Assembly: GCF_021233055.1 (NCBI RefSeq)
Contig: NZ_CP089538.1
Span: 1,283,501-1,347,500, forward strand
Source: Spirosoma oryzicola
GTDB taxonomy: Bacteria > Bacteroidota > Bacteroidia > Cytophagales > Spirosomataceae
Direction of reading: 5' to 3'
Length of the DNA: 64,000 bases
Shown: one piece after another, positions 52,375 to 63,511 of the stretch
How positions within the stretch are numbered: the first letter of the stretch is position 1
Layout: every line of letters starts with the position of its first letter
The notes under the pieces: model-generated
Database searches by the model: none
What the model saw: the letters and a program-made list of their open reading frames with translations, nothing else
Told to the model about the DNA's origin: nothing
Made by a program: the position numbers and the translations under genes

Positions 52375-53583
52375 TTATTCGCCTTTGATATAGTGCAACG
52401 TGATGACAGCTTGATTGAAGGAAAGCAGGGCGTCGAGATAACCCTGTCGGATTTTAAAGGCCTGCTGTACGTTGAGCAGGTAATCGTAATAGCCGATGCT
52501 TCCCAGGCGGTAGCCATCACTAGCCGCTTTAATGATCTCTTCAGCCTGCGGTAACCCCGTCACCGTATAGTAATCCAACGCTTCCTGATACTGTAGGTAG
52601 TCGGCAATCGCTTTGTCGTAGTCGCCCCGAAGCTCGTACTGGTTCAAGGTAATCTGACTTTTGGCAATGGCTACGTCAGTCTGGGCGGCATTGATCCGCG
52701 ACCGGGCTACCCAACCCCAAACCGGCAGTGAAAGGCCAAACCGGAATCGGTACAGAAGTGGTGATTCTGGCCCACCCTGGTTCAGATACCCAACGATGAT
52801 ATTAGGTAACCGGCGCTTTTTTTCCAGCTTCAACAACGACTCGCTCAACTGCTGATTCTGCTCATAGAAGCTTGTTTGCGGATTACGAATAAAGGTGCTG
52901 TCGGATGCCAGTAGCGGAGCAAGCTTACTATCGGGAGCGAAATTCATTCGCTGAAACGGCCCGGTAACACGCAGGCTTGTATCGTTGGGCGTTCCAATGA
53001 GCAAGCCCAACTGAATCCGGCTGCTGCGAACGCGGGCGCGGGTCTGATCCAGCTGATAATTCAGCTCCTGCTGCTGCGAACGCGCGTTGAGCACCTCGAT
53101 GCGTGAAATCTGACCAACACGCTGGCGGGTCTCGGTTACTTTGGTGAATACCAGCAACAAACTATCCTGACGTCGGTAATTGGTGATGCTTTCGCGCAGA
53201 TAAAGTAAATTGTTGTAGACGGTCCGCACGTTATAGCGCAACGTGTTCGTCGTGATGCCTTTCTCCCGCTGGCTCAGCTTGACTTGCTGCTCCTGCACGA
53301 TCCGCTGATTTTTATACACCGTTGGCAGCGACACGGGCAGCAAAACACCGGGCTGGAATCGGGTCGTGGTTGGTGCTTCGAAAATAAGTTCGGGACCCGA
53401 CAGGCTCAGCGCGCCCGGAATCAGCGCTCGTTGTTTATCGATCCGAAGGTTTGCCACGTTTACCTGCGGGTTATCGCTGTTAGCGCGGGCGAGCGCTTCG
53501 GGCAGTGTAATAACATGGTACGATTGAGCCGAAGCCGATATCGCTCCGAAAGTTACACCCAGTAGTGTCAATAGGTATCTCAT
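52375..53583 (-). CDS. TolC-family outer-membrane efflux channel (CzcC/CusC-like)
   Basis: The 402-residue protein has a signal peptide ending ISASAQ and two OEP repeats of coiled-coil helices (TLPEALARANSDNPQVNVANLRIDKQRALIPGALS and a second unit in the C-terminal half), typical of TolC proteins. It overlaps the RND pump stop by 4 bp (ATGA) and precedes the adaptor gene by 1 bp. Together they form a pump-channel-adaptor operon. Substrate is inferred from the CzcA-like pump. Confidence 0.88.
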   Translation of the reverse strand: MRYLLTLLGVTFGAISASAQSYHVITLPEALARANSDNPQVNVANLRIDKQRALIPGALSLSGPELIFEAPTTTRFQPGVLLPVSLPTVYKNQRIVQEQQVKLSQREKGITTNTLRYNVRTVYNNLLYLRESITNYRRQDSLLLVFTKVTETRQRVGQISRIEVLNARSQQQELNYQLDQTRARVRSSRIQLGLLIGTPNDTSLRVTGPFQRMNFAPDSKLAPLLASDSTFIRNPQTSFYEQNQQLSESLLKLEKKRRLPNIIVGYLNQGGPESPLLYRFRFGLSLPVWGWVARSRINAAQTDVAIAKSQITLNQYELRGDYDKAIADYLQYQEALDYYTVTGLPQAEEIIKAASDGYRLGSIGYYDYLLNVQQAFKIRQGYLDALLSFNQAVITLHYIKGE

Positions 53584-56500
53584 GCTACGTTCACCTCCTT
53601 TTCTGTTTCTTTCGGTTGTTGCGTTTTTGGTGAAAACAAGGCGTACAAAACGGGTAATACAATCAGTGTCAGTACGGTTGCGGTTAGTAGTCCGCCGATT
53701 ACGACCGTTGCCAGTGGCTTCTGAACTTCGGCTCCTACGCTGGTAGACAAGGCCATCGGCATGAAACCAAGGGCTGCTACGAAGGATGTCATGAGCACGG
53801 GACGCAGGCGCTCCTGTAGGCCCCGCAACACCCGCTCGTTGGGGTCGGTGACGCCTTCGTCGGCCAGCGCATTGAAGTGACTGACCAGCAGAATACCGTT
53901 CAATACGGCTACGCCGAACAGGGCAATGAAGCCGACACCCGCTGAAATACTGAAGTTCATACTTCGCAGGAGCAGGGAGAAAATTCCGCCTACTGCCGAC
54001 AAAGGCACCACGGCGTAGATGAGCAGACTATCCCGGAAGTTGCCGAACGTCAGGTAAAGCAAGCCGAAGATGACCAGCAGCGATACCGGCAGTACCAGGG
54101 CCAGCCGATCTTTAGCGCGGCTGAAGTTTTCGAATTCGCCCCCGTAGGTGATTGAGTAATCATCCGGCAGTTTAACCCGCTGGCCGACGGCTTTCATCAC
54201 GTCGTTGACTACCGATTCCAGATCACGCTCCCGAACGTTAAACCCGATGTTGACAACCCGTTTCATATCGACGTGTGTAATTTCGGAGGGGCCAACATTT
54301 TCGCTGATTTCGGCCAGCTCGCGCAGCGGAATCGGATTGTTATTCTGATCGTTGACGAGCAGGTTTTCGATGGCTTCGGGACGTACCCGGTCAGCACCCG
54401 CCAGGCGGAACGTCAGATCAAAGCGTTTGTCACCTTCGTACACGACACCCGCCGTGGCCCCGCCAAAGGCCATCTGAATGGCCCGGTTGATTTGCTCGAC
54501 TTTGATACCGTGGACCGCCAGTCGTTGGCGGTCGTATTTGATATTGAGCTGGGGCAAACCAAACACTTTGCTCGCCTTCACATCAACGGCACCCGGAACC
54601 TGCCGAATCACCTGAATGATGGAACGCATCTTGGCAACCAGTGTATCCAGGTTGTCGCCGTAAAGCTGAGCTACTACGTCGGTACGGGCGCCGTTCATCA
54701 TGTCGTTCACGCGGCTTTCAATGGGCTGCGTGATGGCGTAAATGGGTCCCGGAAACTGAGCCATGAATTTATTGACCTCAACGGCTAAGTCTTCCTGCGT
54801 AGCGGCTTTCTTCCAGGTGTGCTTGTCCGTCAGGGACAGGTAAAGCTCCTGCGATTCGAGCGGAAGTGGATCGACTTTTACTTCGGAGGTGCCGATCTTG
54901 GAAACGACCCCTTTGATTTCGTCAGGAAACGCTTTGAGCAGGGATTCCTGAAATGTGCGGCTTAGTCGGATGGATTCGGTCAGGGGGGTACCGGTCGGTA
55001 AATCCATGTCGATCATCATATCGCCTTCCTGCAACTTGGGAATGAACTCGCCACCAATGCGGGTAAAGCCGATAATGCCCGCTACAAGAATACCGGCGGC
55101 TACGCCAACCACGACCAGCTTGGCGCGCAATCCCGCCACGAGTACCGGGCGAAGTAACCGATAAAAAAACTGGACAATTTTTTCGGAGAAACCGTGATCA
55201 TGGAGCGACTTGGGCGGGCGTAACAACAGCGCGCTCATCATTGGCACATAGGTAATAGACAGGAGCAGCGCGCCCAGAATGGCGAAACCAACCGTTTTGG
55301 CCATTGGCGAAAACATCTTTCCTTCAACACCTTCCAGCGTCAGAATGGGAAAATACACGATCAGGATAATCAGTCCGCCAAAGACTACCGACCGTTTAAC
55401 GTCGGAGGTAGAGGCAATGACTACCTCCTGGCGGTCTTTGTACGTCAGCCTGCTGGCTGTCCCATCCGCTCTTGTTTTTTCTTCCTGCCGACGGGCCATG
55501 GCAACCGCCAGAAACAAGACTGCCGACTCGACAACGATGATAGCCGGATCGACCAGCAGACCAAAGTCGATCGCACCCAGACTCATGATGTTGCCGACCA
55601 GATCGAACTGACGCATCCAGATAAAGGCAAACAGCATCGCCAATGGAATGACCGATGCCGCCAGCAAACTCGCCCGCCAGTTGCCGAGTAAAACTAGGAT
55701 TACAATGACGACAATGGCCGCTCCTTCGATGAGGTTATGCGCTACCGTTTCGATGGCAGCACTCACGATTTTGGAACGATCCAGGAACGGTTCGATGATC
55801 AAACCGTCGGGTAGTCCGGCCTGAATCTCGGCGAATTTGTCTTTTAGCCGTCCAATCACCTCATTGCCGTTAGCGCCTTTCATCATCAGGATGGAGCCGC
55901 CCGCTACTTCACCCGTTCCATTCTGACTCAGCGCCCCGAAACGAAGTGCGTGACCCATTTCTACGTCGGCCACATCGCGGACCAGCACGGGCGCATTGCC
56001 GTTTTTACGGACCACTGTCTGAGCAATTTCGTCGAGGTTATTGACCAGCCCGATGCCACGAATGGTGTAGGCTTTATTATCTTTTTCAATGTAGGCCCCG
56101 CCCGTGTTGCCATTCCCCTGCGAAAGAGCTGCGTACAGATCATCGACCGTCACGCCGAGCGCCCGCATCCGGTCCGGTTTGAGCTTGGCCTGGTATTCTT
56201 TGCTGTAGCCGCCGTACCCACTTACGTCCGCAACGCCCGGCATTCCCAGCAGTTTGCGCCGGATGTACCAGTCCTGTAAGGTTCGTATTTCGGTCAGCGT
56301 ATACCGTGGATGATCAGGGTCTTCGGGGCGAATGACGTACTGGTAAATTTCGCCCAGACCCGTAGAGACGGGACCGAGTACGGGTGTACCTGCCCCCTCT
56401 GGGATGTCGGCTTTTACCCCTTCGAGCCGTTCGAACACCTGCTGACGAGCCCAGTAGATGTCAGTCTCGTCGGTAAAGATCAGTTTGAGAACCGACGAGC

Positions 56501-56765
56501 CGAATTTTGATACCGACCGGGCTTCGATCAGGCCGGGGATGTTAGCCATCGCCATTTCGAGGGGCGTGGTAATGAATTTCTCGATTTCGAGCGACGACAG
56601 GTTTGGCGAGTTCGTAATCACGTCTACCTGCTGATTCGTCACATCGGGAACGGCATCAATGGGCAGATTTTTCAGTGAATACGTACCATAACCGATCAGG
56701 CCAAGCAGTAGCAGGCCTAGTGTCCAGGGGCTCCGGACGCTGTAGGCAATCAAGCGATCAATCAT
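53580..56765 (-). CDS. Heavy-metal RND transporter (CzcA/CusA family)
   Basis: The 1061-residue proton-driven pump has twelve predicted membrane helices and two large periplasmic loops. It opens with the HME-RND signature RSPWTLGLLLLGLIGYGTYSLKNLPIDAVPDVTNQQVDVIT. The conserved proton-relay helix reads IDFGLLVDPAIIVVES, keeping the two Asp and the Glu of the family (DFGLxVDxxxxxxE). Candidate metal ligands cannot be assigned by eye, so Zn/Co/Cd versus Cu/Ag remains open. First gene of the three-gene efflux operon. A triple CTTAGA array lies 89 bp before the start. Confidence 0.92.
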   Translation of the reverse strand: MIDRLIAYSVRSPWTLGLLLLGLIGYGTYSLKNLPIDAVPDVTNQQVDVITNSPNLSSLEIEKFITTPLEMAMANIPGLIEARSVSKFGSSVLKLIFTDETDIYWARQQVFERLEGVKADIPEGAGTPVLGPVSTGLGEIYQYVIRPEDPDHPRYTLTEIRTLQDWYIRRKLLGMPGVADVSGYGGYSKEYQAKLKPDRMRALGVTVDDLYAALSQGNGNTGGAYIEKDNKAYTIRGIGLVNNLDEIAQTVVRKNGNAPVLVRDVADVEMGHALRFGALSQNGTGEVAGGSILMMKGANGNEVIGRLKDKFAEIQAGLPDGLIIEPFLDRSKIVSAAIETVAHNLIEGAAIVVIVILVLLGNWRASLLAASVIPLAMLFAFIWMRQFDLVGNIMSLGAIDFGLLVDPAIIVVESAVLFLAVAMARRQEEKTRADGTASRLTYKDRQEVVIASTSDVKRSVVFGGLIILIVYFPILTLEGVEGKMFSPMAKTVGFAILGALLLSITYVPMMSALLLRPPKSLHDHGFSEKIVQFFYRLLRPVLVAGLRAKLVVVGVAAGILVAGIIGFTRIGGEFIPKLQEGDMMIDMDLPTGTPLTESIRLSRTFQESLLKAFPDEIKGVVSKIGTSEVKVDPLPLESQELYLSLTDKHTWKKAATQEDLAVEVNKFMAQFPGPIYAITQPIESRVNDMMNGARTDVVAQLYGDNLDTLVAKMRSIIQVIRQVPGAVDVKASKVFGLPQLNIKYDRQRLAVHGIKVEQINRAIQMAFGGATAGVVYEGDKRFDLTFRLAGADRVRPEAIENLLVNDQNNNPIPLRELAEISENVGPSEITHVDMKRVVNIGFNVRERDLESVVNDVMKAVGQRVKLPDDYSITYGGEFENFSRAKDRLALVLPVSLLVIFGLLYLTFGNFRDSLLIYAVVPLSAVGGIFSLLLRSMNFSISAGVGFIALFGVAVLNGILLVSHFNALADEGVTDPNERVLRGLQERLRPVLMTSFVAALGFMPMALSTSVGAEVQKPLATVVIGGLLTATVLTLIVLPVLYALFSPKTQQPKETEKEVNVA

Positions 56766-56853
56766 GTATGTATAAGGTAGATAAGTACTGTCGAATCAGC
56801 CTCCGTTACGAGATTAATTCGTTGGCAAATTGGCGCGTAGGAATAAAGAGGAG

Positions 56854-56881
56854 CTTAGAAAATTCTTAGAATTCGCTTAGA
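56854..56881 (-). promoter_or_regulatory. Triple CTTAGA operator before RND operon
   Basis: CTTAGA at 56854, 56865 and 56876, an exact 11-bp period. It lies 89 bp before the CzcA/CusA-like start. It shares an 18-bp identical stretch (CTTAGAATTCGCTTAGAA) with the array at 57083. Confidence 0.8.
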
Positions 56882-56908
56882 AGATTTTGGGAGGAATCCG
56901 ATCCGCTG

Positions 56909-56951
56909 AAAACACAAAAACGCTACCGAAGATCAGGGCTTCAGTAGCGTT
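56909..56951 (-). terminator. Terminator (minus strand)
   Basis: AACGCTAC and GTAGCGTT (8 bp), extended by GAAG/CTTC across one mismatch. On the minus strand it is followed by TTTTTGTGTTTT. It ends the coiled-coil gene or a short RNA from the array at 57083. Confidence 0.8.
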
Positions 56952-57082
56952 ATCTCTCGCTAATACTATGAAAAAAGGTACTCTTGGGTAAACCAGGACG
57001 GTACGAACCGGATACCAACGGTAATCGAACAAACCAGATTTATAAACGCATTGGCAAATAGCAGGGAAAAACTGAGAGCCGC

Positions 57083-57110
57083 CTTAGACTCTGCTTAGAA
57101 TTCGCTTAGA
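57083..57110 (-). promoter_or_regulatory. Triple CTTAGA operator at end of coiled-coil gene
   Basis: CTTAGA at 57083, 57094 and 57105 (11-bp period). The last copy overlaps the stop codon of the coiled-coil gene. Downstream on the minus strand lie a terminator and then the RND operon. Confidence 0.78.
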
Positions 57111-58032
57111 AAAAAAGGAAACTATCGCGGAATAGAAATTCGACGGAGCCTAAATACGCGTCTTTTGTAAACACGGACGCTCGGTATTTGCCCGGTTTGA
57201 TAGGTCCGTTGGGAGTAAGGGTAAAGGAAATTCGTTGCGGATTACGGCTGAAGTTCACCGTTTGGGTAGCGTGAACGGGAATCACTTCATTGACATCGGA
57301 CAGCACAACGGTGGTGCTTCGCAAAGGAGCCATCATCGCATTGTGCTGACTGTCGGTCAGGCTTAGAAACAAATCATGCGTACCCGCTATCTGGAGCTCG
57401 GCAGGTATATCGAGCGAAACCGTCAAGTCGTGGACTTTTTTGGCTTTGGCCGTTTGCTTATGGTTTGACTTAGTTGCTTCAACCAGAAAAGCATCGCCCG
57501 TAATGGTTGAGATGGGAACCTTGGTTGACAGGCTTGTGGTCAGATTTTCTACCTTTTTCTGTAAGTCTTTGTTCTGGCTGAGTAGCAACTGGTTCGAATT
57601 GCTTAACCAGCCGATTTTATCCCGCATGGCTTCAAGTTGATTTTCCAGACTGTCGCGGTTGCTGGTAAGGGTGGTAAGCTGGTCGTTGAGTTGTCGAATC
57701 GTACGGCCTTGACGACTCGACTGTTGACGGTATCGCCCAATTTCAGCCGTACGTTTATTCACCACATGGTGTAAATCCGTTATGTGATTGTCGAGCGATG
57801 CGCCGTTGTCTGTTGCGGTTTCGAGCTGACTTTCCATACTACGAATATCGCCCTCCAATCGAAGCTTGACCGACAGGAGCGAGTCGGCTCTCAGTTCGTT
57901 AAAATCATTCAGTTTTGTTAACCGCCAGCTTTTTGTCCAGTAATAAGCGCCCGTAGCCAATAAGAAAAGCATCAGCGCTGTTACCAGGCTTGTGGTCAGT
58001 TTGGTTTGCTGTTCAGTAGTTTCCGTTGCCAT
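57106..58032 (-). CDS. Membrane-anchored coiled-coil protein, unknown function
   Basis: The 308-residue protein has one membrane helix near residues 14-33 (TSLVTALMLFLLATGAYYW). A long coiled coil (about 45-170) is rich in Leu/Gln/Asn heptads: LRLEGDIRSMESQLE, IRQLNDQLTTLTSNRDSLENQLEAM. A C-terminal beta-sandwich-like domain (about 185-308) holds LTVSLDIPAELQIAGTHDLFLSLTDSQ and ends FRDSFLFF. The layout suggests an envelope spacer or scaffold; no named family recognised. The gene is flanked on both sides by CTTAGA arrays, placing it in the metal/ion module. Confidence 0.8.
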   Translation of the reverse strand: MATETTEQQTKLTTSLVTALMLFLLATGAYYWTKSWRLTKLNDFNELRADSLLSVKLRLEGDIRSMESQLETATDNGASLDNHITDLHHVVNKRTAEIGRYRQQSSRQGRTIRQLNDQLTTLTSNRDSLENQLEAMRDKIGWLSNSNQLLLSQNKDLQKKVENLTTSLSTKVPISTITGDAFLVEATKSNHKQTAKAKKVHDLTVSLDIPAELQIAGTHDLFLSLTDSQHNAMMAPLRSTTVVLSDVNEVIPVHATQTVNFSRNPQRISFTLTPNGPIKPGKYRASVFTKDAYLGSVEFLFRDSFLFF

Positions 58033-58087
58033 AGCGATTTGTCTGTTTATTGATAGTACAAACCTGCTAGTTAGCTGTTACAGTGGG

Positions 58088-58115
58088 CTTAAAGACTGCT
58101 TAGAATTTGCTTAGA
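58088..58115 (-). promoter_or_regulatory. CTTAGA operator in divergent region
   Basis: CTTAAA at 58088, then CTTAGA at 58099 and 58110, an exact 11-bp period. It lies between the divergent coiled-coil gene (56 bp away) and the ClC gene (71 bp away), and may control either or both. Confidence 0.78.
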
Positions 58116-58185
58116 ATCCAATGTACGGTCAACTAGATGACCAATTCGGGCGTTAATTGCGGAAACGATTGTAGTTCACGAACAA

Positions 58186-59586
58186 ATGGCCGATAAACCT
58201 TCCCGATATGCGCAGGTGCTGGCCTGGCTGGATCAACACATTATTAAACGGCTGTACACCGAACGTGTCCGGCGAGTCATTTTACAAAGTTTACCTTTTT
58301 GGGTAGCATCCTTACTGACGGGCCTGGTGGCCGTAGGGTACGAAGAGTTGTTCGTTTGGGCTGAGGAAACCAGCTTTACCTGGATGCACCGGCAACCACT
58401 CCTGGTTTTTGCGGTGACGCCCATTGCCTTCGTCATTGCCTGGTTGCTTGTTGCTAAACTGGCTCCTGCGGCACGGGGCAGCGGTATTCCTCAGGTAATG
58501 GCAGGCATTGAACTGTCGAAGCCAACAGCCTACGGTCATACGGGCTATCTGCTGAGCTTACGCGTTGCCGTTGTAAAAGTCCTGAGCAGTGCCGTCCTGC
58601 TGATTGGTGGTGGAGTCATTGGCCGTGAAGGACCAACTATCCAGATTTCGGCGGCTATTTTTCGGGCCATCAATCGACTGCAACCCGCTGGCTGGCCACA
58701 GTTGTCACGGCAGATTGCACTCGTTACGGGCGGGGCCGCTGGTCTGGCCGCTGCGTTCAATACGCCACTGGGCGGTATTGTTTTCGTTGTAGAAGAACTA
58801 ACGCAGACGCACATCACCCGCTTCCGAACGGCGGTTTTTACGGCGGTTATCATCGCCGGTATGACAGCGCAGGCAATTCAGGGGCCGTATTTGTACCTGG
58901 GATTTCCCCGCGTCAGCGCTTCGACGGGGTGGTTTCTGGGTATTGTGGTGTTCGTCGCTATGTTTTGCGGATTGGCGGGCGCTCTCTTTGCGAAAACGTT
59001 GCTGTGGGTGAATGGGTACCGTCGGCGGTTTAAGACGATGCCTCAGCAGGCGGCCTGGGTTGCTGGGTGCGGTCTGGTTCTGGCGGGTCTGGCTTTTTGG
59101 GTGGGTACCGATGCCATCGGAACGGGAAAACCCATTATCAATCGGCTCTTATTTCAGAATGATCACCTGACACCGTGGTACCTTTTTCCGGTGCGCTTTG
59201 CTGGTATGGCGCTGAGCTACAGTGGGGGAGCCGCAGGCGGTGTGTTTGCTACCTCGCTGAGTGCGGGAGCTATTCTGGGCGATGCCCTGTCGCGGCTGGT
59301 AAACGTAACACCCAGCGATACAAATCTGGTGATCCTGGTTAGCATGGTCAGTTTTCTGACGGGGGTGGTGCGTTCACCGTTTACGGCGGCCATTCTGGTG
59401 CTTGAAATGACAGATCGCCATTCGGCTATTTTTCAGCTCTTGCTCGGTGGCCTGATGGCCCAGGGTGCTGCCTCATTGATTGACCCGGTTTCGTTCTACG
59501 AGCACCTGAAAGAAGGCTTTGTCCGGGAAGCAATGGCGCAGCCGGTTACAAGAGAAAACCGCTCAGAATCTTCAAGGACAGAGTAA
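58186..59586 (+). CDS. ClC-type chloride channel/antiporter
   Basis: The 466-residue protein has the ClC signatures GSGIP (98-102) and GREGP (146-150, gating Glu148) and the antiparallel helix architecture. In the third signature the common GxFxP Pro is replaced: GGVFATSLSAGA, so the selectivity region is slightly atypical. It should move Cl- (antiport or channel) across the inner membrane, affecting acid tolerance and membrane potential. Divergent from the coiled-coil gene with a CTTAGA array between. Confidence 0.92.
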   Translation: MADKPSRYAQVLAWLDQHIIKRLYTERVRRVILQSLPFWVASLLTGLVAVGYEELFVWAEETSFTWMHRQPLLVFAVTPIAFVIAWLLVAKLAPAARGSGIPQVMAGIELSKPTAYGHTGYLLSLRVAVVKVLSSAVLLIGGGVIGREGPTIQISAAIFRAINRLQPAGWPQLSRQIALVTGGAAGLAAAFNTPLGGIVFVVEELTQTHITRFRTAVFTAVIIAGMTAQAIQGPYLYLGFPRVSASTGWFLGIVVFVAMFCGLAGALFAKTLLWVNGYRRRFKTMPQQAAWVAGCGLVLAGLAFWVGTDAIGTGKPIINRLLFQNDHLTPWYLFPVRFAGMALSYSGGAAGGVFATSLSAGAILGDALSRLVNVTPSDTNLVILVSMVSFLTGVVRSPFTAAILVLEMTDRHSAIFQLLLGGLMAQGAASLIDPVSFYEHLKEGFVREAMAQPVTRENRSESSRTE

Positions 59587-59699
59587 ACTATTATTAAAGG
59601 TTCTGTCTATCAATTGGATGCGCTGGTTAACGGGTGATTTTTATACCTTCACGGGTGCATTCGAAATACTTGATTACTATTCCGGAACCTGCTTACGAT

Positions 59700-61094
59700 A
59701 TGATTGCTGATGATAAAAAGACACCGAAAGAGAAGCGACCTGATTTGTTGTCCCAGTTTAAGGTATTCCTGAAAGAACGCTTTAGCCTGGATGAAGACAA
59801 AGATGACGAAGTCGAGGTGATTCAGTCGATTAGCCGGGGCATCGAGTTTCGGGGCATTAATTTGTGGACCTTGATCTTTGCCATCTTTATTGCCTCCATC
59901 GGGCTAAACATCAACTCACCGGCGGTCATTACGGGAGCCTTCCTGATCTCACCGCTCATGGGGCCGATTATGGGTATCGGTATGGGCGTCGGTATCAACG
60001 ATCTGGCGATGATCCAGCGGGCGCTGAAAAACCTGGGGATCGCCGTGTTTATCAGTTTGTTGACGTCAACGGTGTATTTTGTGCTGAGCCCGCTTCATCT
60101 CGCTCAGTCTGAACTACTAGCGCGCACATCGCCCACCGTTTGGGATGCGCTCGTCGCCTTTTTTGGGGGGTTAGCGGGTATCGTTGCCGGGTCGCGTCGG
60201 GAAAAGGTAACGAACGTTATTCCGGGGGTTGCCATTGCTACGGCCTTGATGCCGCCCCTCTGCACAGCCGGTTATGGCATTGCTACCGGAAATTTGTATT
60301 ACTTCGCCGGAGCCTTTTACCTGTTTCTGATCAATGGAATCTGTATCAGTTTAGCTACTTTCCTGATCGTACGATTTTTACGGTATCACCAAAAAGAGTA
60401 CCCGTCACCAGCTACCGAACGGCGCGTGCGGCAAACGATCTGGCTGGCCGTTCTCATCGTAATCATTCCCAGCACGTACCTGGGCTATCAGATCGTTCGC
60501 AAGACGATTTTTGAACAGTCAGCCAAGCGATTTGTGGCTAACGAATGCGACTTTCAGTACCGACAGGTGATCAAATACGATGCTCATTTTAATCGAAAAC
60601 AAAGTCGAATTGAGCTTACGCTGGTGGGAGAACCGTTGCCCGCCGACTCGATTAATCTGCTGACGGCAAAATTACCAATGTATGGGCTGACCGATGCGGA
60701 GCTGGTTGTTCGACAGGGCACATTCAAAGACGCGCCGGTTGATGTTGACGCCATTGCCAACACGGTCACCGAGCAGGTTTTTCGTTACAATCAGGCGTCG
60801 ATTGCGATCAAGGATCAAACGATTGATTCATTACGTCGCTATATCGAACTCAACCAGACCTCACACCTACCGGTTGCCGATTTACGCAATGAATTGAAAA
60901 CGCTTATGCCCGACGTTCAGACGTTTACGGCTGCGCGCTCGCTGGTGTTGAATTCAAACAGCGCGAAGCCCGATACGGTGACGCTGGTCTACGCCAAATT
61001 TTCCCGTAGTCACACAGCCGCTGAGCGTCGGCGTATTGAGAGTTGGTTACGGACGCGCACAAAAAGCAAACGAATCAAGCTGCTGATCGAATAG
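59700..61094 (+). CDS. DUF389 family membrane protein (TIGR00341)
   Basis: The 464-residue protein has a charged N-terminal segment, then seven membrane helices including LWTLIFAIFIASIGLNINSPAVITGAFLISPLMGPIMGIGMGVG (typical DUF389) and IPGVAIATALMPPLCTAGYGIATG. A long soluble C-terminal domain of about 180 residues follows. Frames starting up to 22 codons earlier (GTG) are possible; the ATG at MIADDKK is chosen as the first conventional start. Function unknown. It follows ClC in the same direction (113 bp) and precedes a 40-codon ORF on the other strand. Confidence 0.85.
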   Translation: MIADDKKTPKEKRPDLLSQFKVFLKERFSLDEDKDDEVEVIQSISRGIEFRGINLWTLIFAIFIASIGLNINSPAVITGAFLISPLMGPIMGIGMGVGINDLAMIQRALKNLGIAVFISLLTSTVYFVLSPLHLAQSELLARTSPTVWDALVAFFGGLAGIVAGSRREKVTNVIPGVAIATALMPPLCTAGYGIATGNLYYFAGAFYLFLINGICISLATFLIVRFLRYHQKEYPSPATERRVRQTIWLAVLIVIIPSTYLGYQIVRKTIFEQSAKRFVANECDFQYRQVIKYDAHFNRKQSRIELTLVGEPLPADSINLLTAKLPMYGLTDAELVVRQGTFKDAPVDVDAIANTVTEQVFRYNQASIAIKDQTIDSLRRYIELNQTSHLPVADLRNELKTLMPDVQTFTAARSLVLNSNSAKPDTVTLVYAKFSRSHTAAERRRIESWLRTRTKSKRIKLLIE

Positions 61095-61124
61095 CAACAG
61101 CTACAAAATAAGAGGGCGTAGCAG

Positions 61125-61247
61125 CTACCGTAGTAAGCTAGGCAAGTCGACCAGCCAAACAATTAACAGCGAGAGAAGAAACAAAATACCCATAAAAATC
61201 AGCAACCAGTCTGGTTTTCGGGGTTGATCGTCGTCGAATAGAGGCAC
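61125..61247 (-). CDS. Hidden small membrane peptide (40 aa)
   Basis: A 40-codon frame on the minus strand starts with GTG and ends TAG: VPLFDDDQPRKPDWLLIFMG, then a Leu-rich hydrophobic run (ILFLLSLLIVWLVDL). It is one membrane helix preceded by an acidic/charged N-terminus, a shape common for small bacterial membrane peptides. A stop lies a few codons upstream in frame, so no longer protein is possible. An array of four CTTAGA-like hexamers lies 141 bp before its start. Convergent with DUF389, 30 bp past its stop. It could be a regulatory or pump-associated peptide; expression untested. Confidence 0.55.
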   Translation of the reverse strand: MPLFDDDQPRKPDWLLIFMGILFLLSLLIVWLVDLPSLLR

Positions 61248-61387
61248 GTTTTTGCGTTTGTTTGGAAATGATTAGGCGAAACAAATCGAAGTAGGCGAGT
61301 ACCGCAAGATTCGATCATTAGTAAACGATGTCGCGAATAGCCTTACAAATACGGCTGTTACAGTAGTACCAAAAATCGGTCATGCGA

Positions 61388-61426
61388 CTTAAGATTGCCT
61401 GAAAATTTCCTTAGAATCTGCTTAGA
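61388..61426 (-). promoter_or_regulatory. Four-unit CTTAGA operator
   Basis: CTTAAG at 61388, CTGAAA at 61399, CTTAGA at 61410 and CTTAGA at 61421, an exact 11-bp period. It begins just after the histidine-kinase stop codon and faces the 40-codon membrane-peptide ORF. Confidence 0.72.
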
Positions 61427-61431
61427 GATAC

Positions 61432-62799
61432 TTACTGCCGAGTTAGCAATATGGTAAAGGCAGTAGGCTGTCCTGGAGCAGATGATACGGTTAGTTGCCC
61501 ACCATGCAGGCGCACAATCCGCTCGACTAATGACAAGCCTACACCGTACCCGCTTACATCGGCAGTTTGACGGCTGCGGTAGAACGGCTCGAAAATATAA
61601 GGAATATCAGGGGCCGGAATAGGAGGCCCTTCGTTTAAGACCTGGATCTGAAGCTGATCGTTTCCAGCGTTGATGGCGATAACGGCCTGTCCATCGTCGG
61701 AAAACTTACAGGCGTTTTCAGTGAGATTTTTTAAGGCGGTGCACAGCAGCGTTTTATTGCCCCGAACCGTCAACTGATCGGGGTCGTCGGGTAGTTCGCC
61801 GAGATCGATACGTACCTGATAGCGAGGATTAATAGCGTTTACTTCGGAACGGATGTCCCAGGCGGTTTCATCGATGCGTACCACATCGGTCAGCAGACTA
61901 CCAGCATCGTCCATATTGATCTGCGACAGTTGCAGCAGTTCATGGGTTAGGCTAGCTAAGTTCGTGACATCGTCAAGAACAGACCGCATGGTTTGCTGGT
62001 AAGCTTCCGGGTCGCGCTGGTTCAGCAGGCTGACTTCGAGTTGCGAGCTGATCTGAGTGAGCGGATTTTTTAATTCGTGCGATACATTGGCCACGAACAT
62101 GCGCTGTAGTCGAAACGATTCGGCAACTCGGTCGAGTAGCTGGTTGATGGTTGCCGATAGCCTCCCGATTTCGTCATTATCCTGGCGGATGGGTAGCCGT
62201 TCGTCCCGGTTGTTCGGAAAGATGGCATTGAGGGTCTGGTCAATCCGCTGCATGGGCCGAAGCGCATCCCCGGCAAAAAACCATCCCGAGAAGATCGTGA
62301 TACCAATAGCCAGAAAAAACAAACCGACCATTGCCCAGATCAGTTGCCGCAGAAAAGCGTCACCGTATACGTTTTCGGCGCTTGCTAGCACGACATACAT
62401 ACCCGATGCGGTCATAAATCGAATACCGGAGACGTAGTAAAGACCTTGCCGAAAATCTTTTCTTTTTTTCTGCCGGATGGATTCGATCTGACTGGCCGAA
62501 ACGTCAAGCGAAATGGCGTCGTTGGTTTCGTATATGACCGAATCGCGATTGTCGAATACTTTAATCTTTTGATTTGGAAGCTGATCTTTCCGGATGCGGC
62601 TCAGCTGGTGGATTAGTTGTGCATCCAACCGATGAAGAATAAGCATCTCGCCCAGCGTATTGGCTTTCCGGTCGAGTCGGCGGTAAAAGTCAGAAGCGAT
62701 GAAGTACCAGCAAAAGGCATAGATGCTCACAAAGGCCAATAGCAAAATGGCCGATACGAGTCCCGTAAAACGAATTGCTAGGCGATTCCGAATAGTCAT
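61432..62799 (-). CDS. Sensor histidine kinase (HAMP, HisKA, HATPase)
   Basis: The 455-residue kinase has two membrane helices (about 12-35 and 152-175) around a periplasmic loop of about 115 residues, then a HAMP linker. The HisKA domain has phospho-acceptor His241 in NVSHELKNPLTQ, and the HATPase has an N box near LTENACKFSD and G boxes YGVGLSLVERIV. It lies 34 bp after the response-regulator gene in the same operon. The sensed signal is unknown; CusS-type copper sensing is one candidate given the RND pump. Confidence 0.9.
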   Translation of the reverse strand: MTIRNRLAIRFTGLVSAILLLAFVSIYAFCWYFIASDFYRRLDRKANTLGEMLILHRLDAQLIHQLSRIRKDQLPNQKIKVFDNRDSVIYETNDAISLDVSASQIESIRQKKRKDFRQGLYYVSGIRFMTASGMYVVLASAENVYGDAFLRQLIWAMVGLFFLAIGITIFSGWFFAGDALRPMQRIDQTLNAIFPNNRDERLPIRQDNDEIGRLSATINQLLDRVAESFRLQRMFVANVSHELKNPLTQISSQLEVSLLNQRDPEAYQQTMRSVLDDVTNLASLTHELLQLSQINMDDAGSLLTDVVRIDETAWDIRSEVNAINPRYQVRIDLGELPDDPDQLTVRGNKTLLCTALKNLTENACKFSDDGQAVIAINAGNDQLQIQVLNEGPPIPAPDIPYIFEPFYRSRQTADVSGYGVGLSLVERIVRLHGGQLTVSSAPGQPTAFTILLTRQ

Positions 62800-62833: not shown

Positions 62834-63511
62834 TTATTCTTCTTTAAAAACATAACCCATACCGAACTGGGTATGAATAAGCTTTTTAGGGAAATCCTTA
62901 TCAATTTTTTTGCGCAGGTAATTGATATAAACCTCAACCACGTTAGTCCCCGTATCGAAGTTGAGATCCCAGACGTGTTCGGCAATGTCAGGCTTCGACA
63001 AAACCCGTCCCTGATTGCGCATCAGAAATTCCAGCAGCGCAAATTCACGGGCAGTCAGGTCGATAAGCAGGCCGTCGCGTCGCACGGTTTTGGCGTCCAG
63101 GTTCATCTCAATGCCACCGTACCGCAACGTTTGGGCCGTCATCGAGACCTGCGTGCCGCGCTTTGTCAGGGAGCGGACACGGGCCAGCAGTTCGGCAAAT
63201 TGAAACGGTTTGGTTAGGTATTGATCCGCCCCGGAATCGAAACCCGATATGCGATCATCGACTTCACCCAGCGCGGTCAGCAACAAAATAGGCGTCGTCA
63301 GGCCCTCGGCCCGTAGCTGACGGCACAGTTCAAAACCGTTCAGGCCAGGTAAGATAACGTCGGAGATGATGGCTGCGTAATTGTTTTTTAGGGCCAGCCG
63401 CTTGGCAATCAGTCCGTCGTAGGCGATGTCTACCTCAAACTGACTTTCCTCAAGCCCCTGCCGAATTGCTTGCAGCATTTTAGGTTCATCTTCGATCACT
63501 AAGAGTTTCAT
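62834..63511 (-). CDS. OmpR/PhoB-family response regulator
   Basis: The 225-residue regulator has a receiver domain with Asp51 (IISDVILPGLNGFEL), the Thr/Ser and Lys of the conserved pocket (LLTALGEVDDR, YLTKPF) and a C-terminal winged-helix DNA-binding domain (residues about 130-225, ending YVFKEE). This type binds direct repeats spaced 11 bp, which matches the CTTAGA arrays in this module. First gene of the two-gene unit with the kinase. Confidence 0.92.
   Translation of the reverse strand: MKLLVIEDEPKMLQAIRQGLEESQFEVDIAYDGLIAKRLALKNNYAAIISDVILPGLNGFELCRQLRAEGLTTPILLLTALGEVDDRISGFDSGADQYLTKPFQFAELLARVRSLTKRGTQVSMTAQTLRYGGIEMNLDAKTVRRDGLLIDLTAREFALLEFLMRNQGRVLSKPDIAEHVWDLNFDTGTNVVEVYINYLRKKIDKDFPKKLIHTQFGMGYVFKEE

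Follow-up and report, generated by a model that had tools for sequence, protein, structure and literature searches.

The stretch of DNA considered here, referred to as the window, is a 64,000-nucleotide segment of the Spirosoma oryzicola genome (contig NZ_CP089538.1, positions 1,283,501 to 1,347,500). One of its gene modules carries on the minus strand czcA, which encodes an RND pump, a gene for a coiled-coil-type protein, and the genes of a sensor histidine kinase and of a response regulator (Table 1). Four arrays of short direct repeats lie next to these genes. Comparison with related sequences indicates that they are very probably operator-promoters of the adjacent two-component system, at which the local OmpR/PhoB-family regulator would activate transcription.

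Table 1. Genes, arrays and hairpin of the module (positions in the window; TM, transmembrane)
Feature	Position	Strand	Description
CusA/CzcA-family RND pump (czcA), proposed array 1 target	53580..56765	-	TIGR00914
Array 1, proposed czcA operator-promoter	56825..56881	-	56876-56881, 56865-56870, 56854-56859, 56843-56848 (degenerate), 14 nt, TTGC
Hairpin, intrinsic-terminator-like	56919..56951	-	13 pairs and T-rich tail, downstream of array 2
Array 2, candidate promoter of departed TPR gene	57054..57110	-	57105-57110, 57094-57099, 57083-57088, 57072-57077, 14 nt, TTGC
Coiled-coil-type protein, proposed array 3 target	57106..58032	-	hydrophobic N-terminal stretch, no Pfam above cut-off
Array 3, proposed operator-promoter of the coiled-coil gene	58059..58115	-	58110-58115, 58099-58104, 58088-58093, 58077-58082, 14 nt, TTTG
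Small single-TM open reading frame	61125..61247	-	GTG start, 40 aa, ..KPDWLLIFMGILFLLSLLIVWLVDLPSLLR
Array 4, proposed operator-promoter of the small TM gene	61370..61426	-	61421-61426, 61410-61415, 61399-61404, 61388-61393, 14 nt, TTTG
Sensor histidine kinase	61432..62799	-	HAMP, HisKA, HATPase_c
OmpR/PhoB-family response regulator, proposed binder	62834..63511	-	receiver and Trans_reg_C

A sequence-only reading of the window had placed CTTAGA, or close variants of it, at 13 positions with an 11-bp spacing. All 13 half-sites are indeed found there, ten as exact CTTAGA and the others as CTTAAA (58088), CTTAAG (61388) and CTGAAA (61399), and the 18 bases said to be shared by arrays 1 and 2 were confirmed as CTTAGAATTCGCTTAGAA. 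Additional degenerate copies were recognized, CTGAGA at 57072 (array 2), GTTACA at 58077 (array 3) and ATAAAG at 56843 (array 1); once these are counted, each of the four arrays has four half-sites. Read on the minus strand, each one contains two exact TCTAAG half-sites separated by five nucleotides (N5), a third that is TCTAAG, TTTAAG or TTTCAG, and a degenerate fourth, which is followed in all four cases by 14 nt and then TTTG or TTGC. An 11-mer, GCTGTTACAGT, with the internal palindrome CTGTTACAG, was also observed beside array 3 (58074-58084) and array 4 (61354-61364).

Exact CTTAGA-N5-CTTAGA pairs occur eight times in the 7.33-Mb genome, as compared with two occurrences of the backwards pattern, and six of the eight fall inside the module. 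Three-copy TCTAA arrays with at least 14 of 15 matches start at four positions of the window at period 11 and at none at periods 7-10 and 12-15, and they were absent from every one of 30 second-order Markov resamplings of the window. At the lower threshold of at least 13 of 15, five were found at period 11 and one at period 8, a single match being obtained in 2 of the 30 resamplings. Over the whole genome, three copies with up to three mismatches gave 23 matches against 5 for the backwards control, overlapping registers being counted separately. The signal is carried only by exact pairs or by three in-register copies.

The arrays are kept at the orthologous loci of related genomes, as the sequence-only reading required. 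Out of 79 loci returned, 29 with a kinase identity of at least 60% were analysed (L045-L072 and L082, with L048 and L049 sharing one genome), and the search for three TCTAA copies ignored the TTTG element. It yielded 31 arrays at period 11, spread over 19 of the 29 loci, compared with one at period 8, none at periods 9, 10, 12, 13 and 14, and 0-2 over 10 resamplings. None of the 31 lies inside an open reading frame retained by the frame caller. The sixth half-site position is a G in 24, 25 and 27 of the 31 for half-sites 1, 2 and 3, respectively. Downstream of the repeats, TTG is found at offsets 52-54 in 26 of the 31 arrays (0-4 for each of the 19 remaining bins of three offsets), and the T at offset 53 is present in all of them. 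A same-strand open reading frame, called mechanically with a minimum of 60 aa, begins 28-260 nt downstream of the first base of the array in 28 cases; for one of the three remaining arrays (L055), a second type of small TM frame was recognized downstream by direct reading of the DNA.

This fixed distance suggests how the arrays could work. A study on Flavobacterium psychrophilum gives the -7 box as TAnnTTTG, at positions -12 to -5 (PMC9723704), and we infer that the TTTG downstream of the arrays is a promoter -7 box. If the same spacing applies, the last half-site would span roughly -28 to -23 and the third roughly -39 to -34, beside the -33 region, which is an activator position. Taken together, the head-to-tail hexamers, a period of 11 bp and no other, and the fixed distance to a TTTG within a putative overlapping promoter have the form of an OmpR/PhoB-family tandem operator of the PmrA/HP1043/PhoB type.

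The regulator is a member of the OmpR/PhoB family, its scores for PF00072 (92.5 bits) and PF00486 (86.4 bits) exceeding the cut-offs. It matches BasR/PmrA chains over the full length (E 1.9e-32), with DrrD (1kgs) being closer (E 1.7e-51), and reaches 155.1 bits with the PmrA orthologue model NF007928, for which the cut-off is 330. The best NCBIfam models are those of the heavy-metal response regulators for the regulator (TIGR01387, 237.5 bits for a cut-off of 279.2) and of the heavy-metal sensor kinases for its partner (TIGR01386, 171.3 bits for a cut-off of 292.55). A survey of 36 genomes of the genus, with a pattern allowing at most one mismatch and including TT at offsets 53-54, detected arrays in 31 of them, the backwards control giving one match overall. 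The kinase has an orthologue (E up to 1e-90) in 29 of the 36, partial matches being seen in G205 and G222. All 29 kinase-bearing genomes contain arrays (1-12 matches each); among the seven without the kinase, five have none and two have one each (one-sided Fisher test, 5.6e-5, relatedness being ignored). The earlier proposal of PmrA-like half-sites, head-to-tail at 11 bp beside an OmpR/PhoB-family pair, is thus supported, and the arrays follow the kinase orthologue across the genus.

In 20 of the 29 orthologous loci, the kinase gene is followed within 260 nt by an array, scoring 20-22 of 22 positions where shuffle maxima were 14-17. All 20 loci also possess a small TM frame of 52-105 residues from its first possible start, which closes with one hydrophobic segment, preceded by PDWL or PDYL in 19 loci and by LDWL in L047. 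In the other nine, where the array is absent, no such gene is present within 520 nt. In the window, a stop codon separates the TM part from an upstream part, in the same frame, that resembles the N-terminus of the relatives; this copy would thus be shortened or decayed. A protein search gave 66 relatives; none is assigned a Pfam domain, and the source names shown read hypothetical or uncharacterized protein. At the family level, the gene was found in 33 of 150 genomes, with 37 matches, of which 30 were fetched and four (L262, L264, L265 and L266) left unscored for want of a clear PDW-type match. An array lies upstream of the small TM gene in 26 of the 26 scored loci (0/100 shuffles for each), the best fit being one register early in L239, L241 and L243. 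These loci come mostly from the genus of the window and overlap with the orthologous loci, but nine belong to the genus g105, probably Larkinella (P0044, L. rosea, and P0051, L. knui, match L238 and L245). Since the kinase loci of g105 (L061-L063, L066, L068, L069 and L071) lack the small TM gene, the array accompanies this gene also away from the kinase. The rule, derived mainly in the genus of the window, also held for these nine genes, which had not been used in deriving it. It specifies half-site, period, distance and direction, and so provides a predictive operator description for a large and little-studied phylum.

From their positions, the proposed targets in this genome are the coiled-coil gene, the small TM gene, czcA, a TPS/TPP gene and a TPR gene on another contig, so that one two-component system would be tied to trehalose synthesis, efflux and uncharacterized membrane proteins. 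The coiled-coil gene is conserved in L233 and others, and the arrays end 51-64 bp before it in eight orthologous loci. Outlying arrays precede the TPS/TPP gene just beyond the window (C1:1349408-1349462; NF011071, 946.2 bits) and the TPR gene (C2:197197-197251), and a weaker one, without the T at offset 53, precedes a small membrane-protein gene (C2:249817-249871). The whole-genome search for the full pattern with up to three mismatches gave 15 matches as compared with 5 in the control, and its weakest matches are therefore not trusted. In relatives, a divergent TreS-maltokinase gene is found behind arrays (TIGR02456, 905 bits). The regulon would accordingly extend beyond the module. A further correction concerns ClC, which the sequence-only reading had listed among the genes next to the arrays: the polarity of all four arrays leads to minus-strand genes, array 4 pointing to the small TM gene, and neither ClC nor the DUF389 gene is an obvious target. 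Both are found together with a Na+/H+ antiporter in the gene cluster of relatives; the antiporter is absent from the cluster of the window itself.

Some additional observations concern the same neighbourhood. A reversed array lies 5' of the regulator gene in four loci (L233:14916-14943, L045:9161-9188, L052:9098-9125 and L055:9244-9271) in front of the gene for another conserved small protein with a single TM segment (..SYLTSAWFG..PPHYRKL..), encoded opposite the regulator gene and recognized in L055 by direct reading of the DNA. No reversed array is present in the gap of about 140 bp between the regulator and TPS/TPP genes of S. oryzicola. Beside TPS/TPP, just beyond the window, an arginine deiminase-related gene scores under the curated cut-off (L143:12615-14111). 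The contig of L055 is labelled Flavobacterium sp. SUN052 and bears a Spirosoma-type cluster with a 72% identical kinase, which may reflect mislabelling or a mixed assembly.

Arrays 1 and 2 retain traces of two evolutionary events: in one, lineages came to differ in the pump behind a conserved operator, and in the other, a gene departed and its promoter stayed. The czcA product belongs to the CusA/CzcA family (TIGR00914, 1062.9 bits for a cut-off of 701.45), and the relative with the most similar czcA is G219 (92%). In its locus, L233, a TPR gene stands between two arrays, with czcA beyond the one and the coiled-coil gene, followed by a third array, beyond the other; the window has no TPR gene in the corresponding place, between arrays 2 and 1. 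Both flanks of the gap align to L233, one over 142 nt (72.5%) reaching the end of the TPR gene there and the other over 38 nt (81.6%) at the array of that gene, and the TPR gene on contig C2, with an array of its own, is 78% identical to that of L233. A search for gene remnants between arrays 2 and 1 gave chance-level matches only (E 2.4 and 2.6). Array 2 is thus best read as the old TPR-gene promoter, left behind after the gene's departure. Alternatively, it could drive a small RNA, about 130 nt long and terminated by the hairpin (56951-56919). This reading is unproven, since the fold of the candidate RNA is not unusual (z -1.32) and array 2 is already accounted for as the old TPR-gene promoter. 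The stretch holding the hairpin corresponds in alignment to the sequence that follows the TPR gene in L233, and terminator-like matches in the scanned region show no overall excess (6 against 6.1 in shuffles). As for array 1, the pump-preceding array of seven orthologous loci (L049, L053, L055 and L057-L060) fronts RND proteins only 23-32% identical to that of the window. Since the operator is retained while the pump differs, the nature of the signal cannot be read from the pump.

A copper or zinc signal, among the conditions named earlier for testing, is accordingly not supported: different pumps stand behind equivalent arrays, and both members of the pair score under the heavy-metal cut-offs, which weakens a metal-response reading as a whole. 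Our guess is that osmotic or ionic stress, or envelope stress, is the likeliest signal, because of the gene content (trehalose synthesis, the Na+/H+ antiporter and ClC of relatives, RND efflux and membrane proteins). On receiving it, the kinase would phosphorylate the regulator, two dimers of which would bind head-to-tail to the four TCTAAG-type half-sites, whose 11-bp spacing places them on the same side of the helix. With the last half-site ending 14 nt before the -7 TTTG, the bound regulator would overlap the -33 region and activate the promoter in the manner of PhoB and PmrA. Transcription would proceed in the direction of the strand reading TCTAAG, here the minus strand. Binding as tandem dimers, activation and signal are all predictions from sequence.

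No description of the CTTAGA/TCTAAG array motif was found in the open-licence literature searched, and the closest counterparts are known boxes of the same regulator family. PmrA (BasR) of Salmonella and Klebsiella shares the regulator fold, and its head-to-tail hexamers CTTAAT/CCTAAG, 5 bp apart (PMC3973317), are near TCTAAG; its box has two half-sites where the arrays of the window have four, and its target genes differ. For HP1043 (HsrA) of Helicobacter, PMC8345958 describes TTTAAG-5bp-TTTAAG overlapping promoters, one base away from TCTAAG and often identical to the third half-site here. HP1043 is an orphan and phosphorylation-independent regulator; it has two half-sites and no kinase-linked cluster, whereas the window combines four half-sites with a kinase. 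Tandem recognition by PhoB is cited in PMC8345958 too. The CusR/CopR/CztR group shares with the window pair its best models, both below cut-off, and one CusA/CzcA pump as a target; the regulon considered here consists mostly of non-metal genes. Other features of these systems complete the comparison: the cus box is an inverted repeat; the PmrA -7 box differs from the Bacteroidota type, and PmrA also controls the small membrane peptide PmrR; the pho box of PhoB consists of 11-bp direct repeats, as in the window, bound by tandem dimers that replace the -35 element, with a different half-site, CTGTCAT. The regulator of the window is not a PmrA and lies below the heavy-metal cut-off, but it should work like PmrA, HP1043 and PhoB.

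Several results weigh against activation by the local regulator. The genomes and loci compared are related, so that the counts are non-independent, and two of the seven kinase-less genomes are only 71-80% complete. Despite the kinase orthologue, three-copy arrays at the threshold used are absent from 10 of the 29 orthologous loci, and 9 have none behind the kinase gene. An array precedes czcA in just two of the six copies of at least 85% identity, those of the window and G219; the proposed link to czcA stands there and fails in the other four. Loose pairs show no excess, with 34 against 35.1 expected in the window (up to three mismatches) and 24 against 29 for the backwards control in the genome (up to one), and counting them was abandoned as a test. 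A sigma-70-type scan, whose consensus is not the Bacteroidota one, gave four promoter-like matches for 5.1 expected, all on the plus strand, opposite to the proposed direction, and three of them built from array bases. Finally, a first look at the genome lists 90 kinase candidates, and paralogous regulators have nearly identical recognition helices; another regulator could thus bind the sites or share them.

A shared stress network, in which mainly a different OmpR/PhoB-family regulator or several paralogues jointly bind the arrays, is the alternative that survives best, and it is nonetheless improbable. Five other kinase genes of the genome, all encoding HAMP, HisKA and HATPase_c, are trailed by TCTAAT-type arrays of 3-6 half-sites, at about 15 nt or less from the stop codon in L144, L145, L146 and L149 and about 120 nt behind it in L148; those of L144 and L145 have six half-sites. 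Similar arrays are found at L134 and, as a second one, in L149, where placement behind a kinase is not established. TT follows 14 nt after the last half-site in five of seven paralogue-type arrays and GTTG in one more, and the downstream genes include those of an outer-membrane efflux protein, an RND pump and a sulfate permease. Across the order, TCTAA arrays were detected in 34 of 194 genomes, as compared with 6 for the backwards control. Against such sharing, the G at the sixth position is kept in most half-sites of the orthologous loci, and the arrays of the genus go with the kinase orthologue (29/29 against 2/7) and lie within its gene cluster. An E/D difference was seen in the recognition helix, which might account for G versus T half-sites.

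Slightly less probable still is repression by the local regulator, with half-sites over -33 blocking RNA polymerase until the signal arrives. The overlap between sites and promoter is compatible with this mode and in that respect also counts against activation. Activators of the OmpR/PhoB family, however, typically have their tandem repeats at a set distance from the -7 box. The HP1043 paper likewise holds promoter-overlapping repeats to be typical for activators (PMC8345958). That the arrays are functionless chance or low-complexity tandem repeats, as the loose pair counts alone would allow, has next to no credibility in view of the excess of three-copy arrays over the period and shuffle controls, their conserved position, the fixed TTTG distance and their intergenic placement.

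Activation by the local regulator being retained, a broader proposal can tentatively be made, which is possible rather than likely. Arrays of the TCTAA[G/T]-N5 type, with 3-6 half-sites at a fixed distance from the Bacteroidota -7 box, may represent a general operator code of a clade of Cytophagales regulators, often located directly behind a kinase gene. The site of this kind in the window might then be the promoter of a conserved single-TM protein feeding back on the kinase, as an MgrB/PmrR-like connector. Some of the order-wide arrays are simple tandem repeats or repeat elements, G121, G135 and G193 providing examples. In G193, an identical TCTAA array is present 13 times over several contigs, with five copies about 20 bases from the contig start, a pattern that would fit carriage by a mobile element.

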